Source of the DNA: Dehalococcoidia bacterium
GTDB taxonomy: Bacteria; Chloroflexota; Dehalococcoidia; Dehalococcoidales; BS750m-G39
Assembly: GCA_030615425.1 (NCBI GenBank)
Contig: JAUWZG010000019.1
Location: forward strand, 1-16,284
Direction of reading: 5' to 3'
Length of the DNA stretch: 16,284 nt
The position numbers and the translations under genes were made by a program. A model generated the notes under the pieces. That model worked only from the letters and a program-made list of their open reading frames with translations, searched no databases and was not told where the DNA came from. Within the stretch, counting starts at the first letter, position 1. Every line of letters begins with the position of its first letter. Shown here piece after piece: positions 6,089 to 9,395 of the stretch.

Positions 6089-6115
6089 TTAGCACTCTCA
6101 CTCCGAGAGTGCTAA
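6089..6115. promoter_or_regulatory. CIRCE operator (HrcA binding site) of groES-groEL
   Basis: TTAGCACTC (6089-6097), a 9-nt spacer, and GAGTGCTAA (6107-6115) match the CIRCE consensus with no mismatch. It lies between the promoter and groES, at the expected transcription start, where bound HrcA would block initiation and where the transcript would begin with the hairpin. hrcA itself is not in the window. Confidence 0.97.
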
Positions 6116-6280: not shown

Positions 6281-6309
6281 TTGACAGCCTACACTGAATC
6301 GTGTAGAAT
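6281..6309 (+). promoter_or_regulatory. Promoter P1 with embedded palindromic operator, for the XRE regulator gene
   Basis: TTGACA (6281-6286), a 17-nt spacer and TAGAAT (6304-6309). The palindrome CTACAC-N6-GTGTAG (6289-6306) occupies the spacer and overlaps the -10 box, so a bound dimer would block polymerase. The same architecture is repeated at 6561-6589, 280 bp downstream. The start codon of the regulator follows the -10 box by 6 nt. Confidence 0.8.
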
Positions 6310-6315
6310 CCAGAC

Positions 6316-6564
6316 ATGAGCCAGCGACAGCAAATGAACCGAACACCGTGGGATGGAGAGCTCATACGGGCTTTGAGGCGCCGTTTAGGTCTAACCCAGC
6401 GTAAGCTGGCGGAGAGAATGGGCACACGCCAGCAAACAATAAGCGAATGGGAAACCGGGATGTATAAACCCCGCGGTGCCTCAATTACCCTTCTTTCCAT
6501 TATTGCCGAACAAGCCAAATTTGAATATCAAGCTTCCACCCCAAAACCGCCTGAAGAACCTTGA
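6316..6564 (+). CDS. Small XRE/HTH_3-type transcriptional regulator
   Basis: An 82-residue DNA-binding protein consisting almost wholly of one Cro/CI-type helix-turn-helix domain. LTQRKLAERMGTRQQTISEWETG (26-48) holds helices 2 and 3, with RQQTISEWE as recognition helix. The tail is proline- and glutamate-rich (QASTPKPPEEP) and there is no ligand or dimerisation domain. ATG at 6316 lies 6 nt after the -10 box with no Shine-Dalgarno, so translation is probably leaderless; the second Met (6334) lacks one too. The palindrome in its own promoter, and a near-identical one over its stop codon leading into the next gene, make it a likely autoregulator that also controls the DUF2851 gene. Its size and circuit resemble restriction-modification controller proteins and phage Cro-like repressors; that is analogy, not homology shown here. 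Confidence 0.88.
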   Translation: MSQRQQMNRTPWDGELIRALRRRLGLTQRKLAERMGTRQQTISEWETGMYKPRGASITLLSIIAEQAKFEYQASTPKPPEEP

Positions 6565-6589
6565 CATTATACACGGAAACGTGTATAAC
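6561..6589 (+). promoter_or_regulatory. Promoter P2 with embedded operator, facing the DUF2851 gene
   Basis: TTGACA (6561-6566), 17 nt and TATAAC (6584-6589). The spacer and -10 contain a perfect palindrome with 9-bp arms TTATACACG (6567-6575) and CGTGTATAA (6580-6588) around GAAA. Aligned with P1 from -35 to -10, about 22 of 29 positions agree, including TACAC, GAA and CGTGTA of the operator. The TGA stop of the regulator (6562-6564) lies within the -35 box. The transcript would have a leader of about 200 nt before the DUF2851 start. Confidence 0.8.
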
Positions 6590-6617
6590 CTTGGTGGAGA
6601 GCCTCTCTTGCATTACT

Positions 6618-6798
6618 GGTTCCCCCTCCCCTTATAAGGGTAGATTGGAGGGGCAAAGCCCCTTCAAAACCTGATAGTTCGCCCTCCCTGATAAAAGGGA
6701 AGTCCGAAGGGGACAAAGGGGGTTCCCTGAAAAATCAAAGATTTTTTAGGGTGCATAAAGGGGATAGGGTCTCCAAATAAAAAGCTAAAGGGGGAGGG
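6618..6798. repeat. Leader region with repeat block D (palindromes and a 12-bp hairpin, no G4)
   Basis: This lies between P2 and the DUF2851 start. It holds the palindrome CCCTTATAAGGG (6629-6640), GGGTAGATTGGAGGGG (6638-6653, matched with two changes at 13663-13678 in block F) and GGGGCAAAGCCCC (6650-6662, also in block A). A strong hairpin follows: CCCTGAAAAATC (6725-6736) pairs with GATTTTTTAGGG (6740-6751), 12 bp with one G-T pair and loop AAA. Unlike the other blocks it has no four-tract G motif. No short gene is seen. The hairpin would lie in the mRNA leader of the DUF2851 gene. Confidence 0.65.
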
Positions 6799-8175
6799 TT
6801 GCCAAATAATCTCCCGGAGAGGGTGGTGGTTGAAATATGGCAGAGGTTAATGGATAGAGCTGGGCTGACCACAGCCGACGGTGAGCCGATAAGGATAATC
6901 TACCCGGGAAGGAAGAATGATGGCCGAGGAGCTGATTTCCGGGACGCAGTTATTGCCACCAGCCAGGGGATAACAAAGGGGGATATAGAGGTTCATGTCA
7001 AATCCAGCGATTGGCAAGCTCACCGGCATCACCAAGACCCAGCCTACAACCGGGTAATCCTGCATGTGGTTATGTGGCACAACAGACGGGCCGCTACCGT
7101 GCTCCATAACGGAAAAACAGCGCCCATCCTCACCCTAGATAAATACCTAGAGGGTCCGAGCAGTCGTGGGGCGGGGTCGGCCCATCCCCCAGCCAGTTCC
7201 GGTATGCCTTGCCTTGAAACAGCGAAAGGCTTAGCCACCAATACGCTGGCCGAATCTCTAGATAGCGCTGGGGGGAGGCGGTTTTCAGCCAAGGCTGCCC
7301 AGTTTCAAACCGAATTGAGCCAAATGGAGGCAAGCCAGTGTCTTTACCAGGGGATAATGGGGGCTCTAGGTTATGCCAAGAATAAGCCGCCCATGCTCAA
7401 GCTAGCCAGGAGTTTGCCACTCCAGATTCTACAGTCTATGACTCAGGGCGAAGTATCAGGCCAAGAGTGCCTTGCCCAGCTACAGGCGCTACTGCTGGGC
7501 ACAGCTGGGCTGCTACCCTCGCAGCGCCAGAACCGGCACCGGGAATATCAGGACGACGAGTGGGCGGACAAACTGGAGGGGCTATGGGCTTCCTCACCTG
7601 GCACCAAGGCGCTGTCCGAGGATGACTGGCACCTGTTTAAGGTCAGACCAAACAACTTTCCCCTACGCCGTATAGCGGCTATGAGCTACCTCATCCTCCG
7701 CTACCGGGAAAGGGGGATGGTTGAACAGGTAGTCGGTATGATAAAGGAGGCACCGGTGAGTGGGGGCCACCTCAGATTAGAAAGGGGACTTGGGGTCACT
7801 GCCCATGGCTATTGGGCAAGCCACTTTGATTTTGGCTTGGATAGCAGAACCAACAATCCAACCCTCCTCGGCAGATGGCGAGCGGCTGATATTGTGGTGA
7901 ATGTGCTCCTGCCCTTCGTCCTTGCCTGGAGCAAGCTCAACTCCCAACCAGGGGTTGAGGAAAAAACCTTTAAGCTCTATGGCGGTTATCCCAGGCTGGC
8001 GGTGAACACGGTGGAAAGACATATGATAAAGCAGCTGGGGCTAAACATCAGCGTGGTCAATTCAGCCCAGTGCCAGCAGGGGCTAATCCATATCTATAAT
8101 ACCCTATGTATCCAGGGCAAGTGTAACTCCTGCCGCTTAAGCCAGCCTGAGGCTGGGCACCACGTCCAGGTCTAA
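6799..8175 (+). CDS. DUF2851 family protein
   Basis: A 458-residue protein I recognise as the DUF2851 family (Bacteroidota, Chloroflexota and others), whose function is unknown. The N-terminal region carries the family's conserved block: [16 protein letters not shown] (35-50), then [12 protein letters not shown] (61-72), then HRHHQD (75-80) and [10 protein letters not shown] (86-95). The Asp46 ... Glu64-x-His66-x-Lys68 layout resembles a PD-(D/E)XK nuclease core, an inference from pattern only. The C-terminus has three closely spaced cysteines (CIQGKCNSC, about 440-448), possibly metal-binding. The start is TTG at 6799: AAAGGGGGAGGG lies immediately upstream and homologs begin near '.PERvv..IWqr'. 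GTG at 6823 is an alternative. It is probably controlled by the XRE regulator through P2. Its last 39 nt overlap the 3' end of tsaD on the other strand. Confidence 0.85.
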
Positions 8176-9175: not shown

Positions 9176-9395
9176 ATCACCCTCACCCCCTTTATCCCCC
9201 TCTCCCTCCAGGGAGAGGGGGAAAGTTTTTTAAGAAGAGGGGCTAGCGCCCCTCTTAAACACCCCTCCCTCTTTTCAGTTTACCTTTTTCTTCCCACCCT
9301 CCCACCCTCGGAGGTTTTGCCCACCAGCCTCGGTGGGCGGGTGGGTGGGAAAAATAACAAACTCAAAACAGGGGGTTGGGGGAGAGCAGGCTTAC
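9176..9395. repeat. Intergenic repeat block E (paired hairpins plus a G4 inverted repeat)
   Basis: Between divergent tsaD and the CNNM gene. 9176-9265 is a second copy of the two-hairpin module of block A. Hairpin 1 has arms TCCCCCTCTCCCT (9195-9207) and AGGGAGAGGGGGA (9210-9222), then AAGTTTTTTA. Hairpin 2 is AAGAGGGGC (9235-9243) with GCCCCTCTT (9248-9256). An inverted repeat of about 60 bp follows (9291-9351): CCCACCCTCCCACCC (9293-9307) on the left and GGGCGGGTGGGTGGG (9335-9349) on the right, G-quadruplex motifs on the minus and plus strands. Frames crossing it are not believed. Confidence 0.87.

Follow-up and report, generated by a model that had tools for sequence, protein, structure and literature searches.

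What does a small XRE-type regulator control when its gene is bracketed by two promoters that share one palindrome? The question is raised by a 16,284-nucleotide stretch of DNA from a Dehalococcoidia bacterium (contig JAUWZG010000019.1), which we refer to in full as the window. Here we follow the palindrome from the window to related loci, to the genomes of the class and to the genes that lie behind it.

Twin promoters and palindromes at the xre locus

The first-pass annotation had described two promoters of the same design, and the sequence confirms both. P1 (6281..6309, forward strand) consists of TTGACA at 6281-6286 and TAGAAT at 6304-6309, matches the consensus at 11 of 12 positions in a promoter scan, and precedes xre (6316..6564, forward strand), which encodes an 82-residue, single-domain HTH_3 regulator according to Pfam and an AlphaFold2 model. 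P2 (6561..6589, forward strand), recognized from its sequence and from the second copy present in relatives, consists of TTGACA at 6561-6566 and TATAAC at 6584-6589, faces the DUF2851 gene and, as had been claimed, begins over the end of xre, the stop codon TGA (6562-6564) lying within its -35 hexamer. Both spacers measure 17 nt. The TACAC-N6-GTGTA palindromes that had been noted in them likewise hold up: operator O1, TACACTGAATCGTGTA (6290..6305), and operator O2, TACACGGAAACGTGTA (6570..6585), to which no strand applies, each fill the spacer as far as the -10 box, are identical at 14 of 16 positions and are 280 bp apart. The half-sites of O2, TACACG and CGTGTA, are intact; O1 carries a T at position 6, so that its half-site on the -35 side is imperfect. 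The transcription start predicted from the -10 box of P1 coincides with the ATG at 6316 or lies next to it, which would probably leave the xre mRNA without a leader.

Two exact copies of TACAC-N6-GTGTA are present in the window and none in 200 dinucleotide shuffles. When TTGACA-N3 was required in front of the palindrome and up to three mismatches were allowed, the same two sites were found, both exact, against a shuffle mean of 0.05, and none of the 200 shuffles held two. The palindrome alone, at two mismatches and without the -35 hexamer, is not unusual (six in the window against 3.06 expected, with at least six in 18 of the 200 shuffles), and the evidence thus rests on the exact copies, on their placement within promoters and, above all, on conservation. 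No third operator was found in the window between O2 and the DUF2851 gene.

To assess conservation, genome contigs were scanned with the XRE protein, yielding 56 loci, mostly from Dehalococcoidia, in which a common gene order of groES (reverse), xre, DUF2851 and tsaD (reverse) was apparent. DUF2851 follows xre on the same strand at 38 of the 56 loci, groES lies upstream on the opposite strand at 29 and tsaD is convergent downstream at 26; contig ends truncate many of these loci. The 70 nt preceding the start codon were then inspected in 78 (52-100% protein identity) of 83 non-redundant xre rows; five rows with truncated upstream sequence or identity below 52% were dropped, one of which (L087) has the site. 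The palindrome was present with no mismatch (48) or one (13) at 61 of these 78 loci, compared to 0.15% of shuffles and 1.2% of random 70-mers drawn from the same loci. Of the 63 sites with two mismatches or fewer, 57 end 10-14 nt 5' of the start codon, from which a transcription start at the ATG or close to it is predicted in relatives as well. Across 60 aligned related loci, the TTGA of the -35 hexamer and the final T of the -10 box are conserved, and the stretch 5' of the -35 hexamer carries almost no information. A second operator copy lies 3' of xre at 20 of the 25 closest loci. Fifteen of the 78 loci are devoid of a site at two mismatches or fewer, seven of them (L045-L051) forming a distant group. 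Some close relatives, among them L004 (the same locus as L060) and L019 (the same as L111), have no site before xre and keep the second copy; in deeper relatives, the palindrome is retained before xre and the -35 sequences differ. The first-pass annotation had pointed to related genomes as the place to look for these sites, and it is there that they recur: before xre, behind it and often once more before DUF2851.

That these are ordinary strong promoters with an incidental palindrome is thus hardly credible. Hexamers resembling TTGACA and TATAAT are common by themselves, a generic promoter scan of the window returning 17 promoter-like sites against 12.9 expected (P1 among them; P2, whose -10 box ends in C, is absent from the list). 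Against this reading stand the conservation of the spacer palindrome at loci whose flanks are not conserved, and the reversed-pattern control of the class-wide search reported below, which matched no genome.

Two other features of the window were recorded alongside. Upstream of the divergent groES-groEL genes lies a perfect CIRCE element, TTAGCACTC-N9-GAGTGCTAA (6089-6115), of the kind linked to HrcA, and near-identical G+C-rich, terminator-like hairpins at 160-189 and 9195-9222 are possibly copies of one small repeat.

A candidate regulon of mutL and methyltransferase genes

Whole genomes of the class were next searched for the pattern, exactly or with one mismatch, against a reversed-pattern control, and the gene behind each site was identified. 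These searches returned only a few sites in each genome and almost none for the control (three stray matches in one set of 44 genomes). The exact form TTGACA-N3-TACACG-N4-CGTGTA was found in 46 of 393 genomes, its reversed counterpart in 0 of 393. Judged by its placement, the motif marks a small putative regulon in Dehalococcoidia that extends beyond the locus seen in the window.

One putative member outside the xre locus is mutL. The operator lies 5' of this gene in 42 genomes, the palindrome starting 12-38 nt before the called mutL start in 40 of them; in the two exceptions, the palindrome and the first ORF start found are separated by 121 nt (L100) and 346 nt (L182). At 35 of the 42 loci, the operator is preceded by the 3' end of pcrA. 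Neither mutS nor recA-like genes belong to the regulon at the stringency used. A loss of mismatch repair in which MutL alone survived was ruled out by the presence of MutS_I in 13 of 16 genomes, and the strict endonuclease motif is found in 14 of 22 full-length MutL proteins.

Twenty-one exact sites remain once those before xre, mutL, DUF2851, DUF72, macro-domain and CoA-ligase-like genes are set aside, together with a site at which the contig ends (G221) and inexact sites such as that of G029. Eighteen of the 21 precede DNA methyltransferase genes, 17 called by Pfam (N6_N4_Mtase, D12 and Eco57I types) and one (G042) by eye. At the three others, there is no correctly oriented gene nearby (G365), a 206-residue ORF followed by mutL (G318:C2) or a gene with a weak PDDEXK_1 match (G098). 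A recognizable Type II restriction enzyme adjoins eight of the 18 operator-bearing methyltransferases, seven being assigned by Pfam (EcoO109I twice, Tsp45I twice, BsoBI, SfiI and MvaI/BcnI) and one more by PADLOC. Restriction genes of the Tsp45I, BsoBI and MvaI/BcnI types run convergently to the methyltransferase gene, which alone would be under the site. Methyltransferases with a site are a minority, amounting to 11 of 74 PF01555 matches in 16 genomes, a count outside which the D12 and Eco57I types fall.

In G024, G037 and G042, a methyltransferase sits between pcrA and the position of mutL, behind what appears to be the mutL promoter; mutL is seen behind it in the first two genomes, and the contig of G042 stops earlier. 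Operator-bearing methyltransferase cassettes of different types recur at the 3' end of nrdJ (four sites: L068, L139, L175 and L184). Four methyltransferase promoters of G117 (L187:2767-5962 and L188:2407-2422) have some 25-100 bp of upstream sequence in common, two of them sharing about 100 bp that include a terminator-like hairpin, a pattern suggestive of duplication of the promoter cassette. In a single genome, G293, xre itself is followed by a methyltransferase gene. The exact motif also occurs on nine viral contigs (L232-L240), where the genes behind it were mostly unrecognized by eye; neither a methyltransferase nor mutL was recognized by eye behind the sites of these nine contigs, and spread of the operator by viruses was set aside on that ground.

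The XRE protein as the predicted repressor

Is the XRE protein the factor that recognizes the palindrome? A homolog (E <=1e-8) is encoded in 234 of the 393 genomes, nearly always in a single copy, and it is present in 43 of the 46 operator genomes compared to 191 of the 347 others (p=9e-8, a figure inflated by shared descent). The exact operator form occurs in only 43 of the 234 XRE-bearing genomes, and the regulon as defined here thus applies to part of the class. That a different, unlinked regulator binds the palindrome, xre being merely one of its targets, appears quite improbable. Three operator genomes of unestablished completeness (G082, G102 and G360) yielded no XRE match at E 1e-8, operator-bearing methyltransferase genes being present in G082 (L184/L231) and G102 (L185/L230), and these genomes, like the viral contigs, speak for such a regulator. 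The co-occurrence speaks against it, as do the association of the site with the xre locus in most close relatives and the recognition region of the XRE protein, GTRQQTISEWE, which is nearly invariant among relatives, as is the site.

The protein itself scores 44.5 bits against PF01381 (HTH_3; cut-off 23), placing it in the XRE/HTH_3 family. Its AlphaFold2 model has a pLDDT of at least 90 across most of residues 11-60, with helices at 14-24, 28-35, 39-47 and 55-66, and neither a sensor nor a self-cleavage domain was found in its 82 residues by Pfam or in the model. C.Kpn2I, phage P22 c2, C.BclI and C.Esp1396I were included among the best 50 Foldseek rows; C.Kpn2I came first at E 5.6e-3, and no row reached 1e-3.

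Own and target operators differ. In a search of 24 genomes with position 6 left free, the sites of which were sorted by hand, T occupied this position in 12 of 15 operators preceding xre and in none of the 32 other sites, all of which carry G (p=9e-9). The window obeys the same pattern, with TACACT in O1 and TACACG in O2. Among a broader set of 61 own operators, 45 had T at position 6, 15 had G and one had C.

We therefore read the locus much as the first-pass annotation had, which saw in it an autoregulated XRE repressor controlling a downstream gene through a second operator; this is the best reading of the conserved sites, with binding predicted from them. It is, we consider, highly probable from the sequence comparisons that xre encodes an autoregulated repressor of a small regulon of DNA repair and modification genes, whose strong promoters it would shut by binding the operator. 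An XRE dimer would bind TACACG-N4-CGTGTA and, at its own promoter, the variant TACACT-N4-CGTGTA. Filling the spacer of a near-consensus promoter and overlapping the -10 box, the occupied operator would keep RNA polymerase off. The putative regulon would comprise xre, the adjoining DUF2851 gene (preceded in relatives by DUF72, macro-domain or CoA-ligase-like genes), mutL and, in a subset of genomes, the methyltransferase genes that belong to acquired Type II restriction-modification systems. Because of the T at position 6, the repressor would bind its own operator more weakly, and would thus still be made while its targets are shut. Relief of repression might be triggered by DNA damage or by unmethylated DNA, both of which are guesses.

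Several known systems resemble this arrangement. LexA and the SOS response share with it promoter-embedded palindromes, autoregulation and repair-gene targets; unlike LexA, the 82-residue XRE protein has no S24 self-cleavage domain by Pfam, and its operator is different. DdrO of Deinococcus is an autoregulated XRE repressor of about 130 residues and two domains, with a palindromic operator in repair-gene promoters. The protein described here is half as long, with one HTH domain and no C-terminal domain, and differs from DdrO in its operator and in having no consistent M78 peptidase partner. A damage-responsive repressor of the DdrO or LexA kind, governing a second, LexA-independent repair response, is nonetheless suggested by operators set between the -35 and -10 boxes of near-consensus promoters, as in promoters held off until needed, and by targets that include mutL, DUF2851 with its repair-enzyme-like folds and, in some relatives, DUF72, for which a passage in PMC3828134 predicts an endonuclease IV-like repair role. 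We regard this reading as rather unlikely, since the protein is without a sensor or self-cleavage domain, a PprI/ImmA-type M78 peptidase is encoded in only eight of the 24 operator genomes, a separate S24 (LexA-type) protein occurs in 23 of them and the regulon includes neither mutS nor recA-like genes. The S24 protein, over the cut-off in 22 genomes, also led us to reject replacement of LexA as the main reading, and the scarcity of the peptidase to reject a DdrO/PprI system. A toxin-antitoxin pair was dismissed too: the HTH similarity to MqsA-family antitoxins reaches 30.3 bits against PF15731 (cut-off 30), whereas the NCBIfam MqsA model gives 41.7 bits, below its cut-off of 61.8, the zinc domain is missing and no toxin gene was recognized beside xre.

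By analogy, the nearest working parallel is found in the C proteins of restriction-modification systems (C.Kpn2I, C.Esp1396I, C.Csp231I), with which the 82-residue protein shares a small, autoregulated XRE fold and methyltransferase promoters as putative targets; C.Kpn2I, C.BclI and C.Esp1396I are among its best 50 Foldseek rows, although none at E <=1e-3. C proteins are encoded within the restriction system that they serve. In contrast, xre lies between groES and DUF2851 at a conserved place in the chromosome, outside any restriction system, and a single type of site would serve several unrelated restriction systems as well as mutL; moreover, one palindrome per promoter was seen both in the window and in the upstream regions examined, as opposed to the tandem two-dimer C-box. 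Because xre lies outside a restriction system and its promoters have one palindrome and no two-dimer C-box, we do not count it among the C proteins. The parallel nonetheless raises the possibility, to which we give somewhat less than even weight, of a homeostatic limiter that responds to no inducing signal and keeps the amounts of methyltransferase, MutL and nuclease low and constant, much as some C proteins restrict the methyltransferase of their own system. A strong methyltransferase promoter is inhibited by C.Kpn2I, the top Foldseek match (at the E-value given above), according to a passage in PMC6237814, and a section of a review (PMC12707154) describes cross-complementation between related C proteins and repression of the methyltransferase gene by some C proteins. 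A limiter would also fit a single-domain protein, negative autoregulation and a weaker own site. It leaves mutL unexplained, and the position of xre outside any restriction system argues against it.

DUF2851 and the meaning of the candidate regulon

The gene that P2 faces (6799..8175, forward strand, start codon uncertain) scores 228.5 bits against PF11013 (cut-off 25), establishing it as a member of DUF2851; a single search returned more than 2,700 matches to this family. This candidate two-domain DNA repair protein would, tentatively, combine a putative PD-(D/E)XK nuclease domain (residues 1-118) with an HhH-GPD glycosylase-like domain (143-458). A sequence search against solved structures gave two matches, the best at E 0.077, neither meaningful. 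The one paper found to name the family gives it no function in the portion available. DUF2851 and DUF72 had no PADLOC match at E 0.01, and a role in anti-phage defence was dismissed on this basis.

At related loci, xre and DUF2851 may be separated by a gene of the DUF72, macro-domain or CoA-ligase-like type, in which case DUF2851 commonly carries an operator copy of its own, sometimes only a few bases before the ATG. This third copy, TACACGATATCGTGTT or similar, was located at L001:2407, L002:4373, L003:4445, L005:4920, L007:4855, L008:4923 and L014:4329; a conserved CCGCTTTT-like stretch lies upstream of it, and TTGACA in register is missing. In the window, nothing was recognized as coding in the approximately 200 bp between P2 and DUF2851 (6590-6798), the matching region of relatives being occupied by DUF72, by a macro-domain gene or, in L003, by a DUF72 remnant. 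A repeat origin of 6590-6850 was considered and discarded, as only one short palindrome was seen there and a search with one guessed palindrome gave nothing.

The regulator would be a familiar one, an XRE repressor acting on its own gene, with a regulon that is unexpected. We tentatively suggest, as an idea that could well prove wrong, that a resident chromosomal XRE protein acts as the common controller of unrelated, acquired Type II systems and so ties DNA modification to mismatch repair, the methyltransferase genes coming under it either with a carried operator-promoter or by insertion behind that of mutL. MutL, the methyltransferases and DUF2851 would then be set by one switch, and DUF2851 would be a new repair nuclease in which a PD-(D/E)XK domain is joined to an HhH-glycosylase-like lesion reader without the catalytic Asp. 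We know of no precedent for mutL under a dedicated repressor or for a trans-acting controller shared by unrelated restriction systems, and none was found in open-licence papers searched with combinations of XRE, mutL, restriction and Dehalococcoides.

The regulon would bring guilt-by-association evidence for DUF2851 in DNA repair, and the simplicity of the operator sequence makes it usable for finding further members. If the proposal is true, the dosage of methyltransferase for several unrelated systems would be set in these bacteria by a regulator encoded by the host, and not by a controller borne by the restriction system, and the level of MutL would be set by that same switch.
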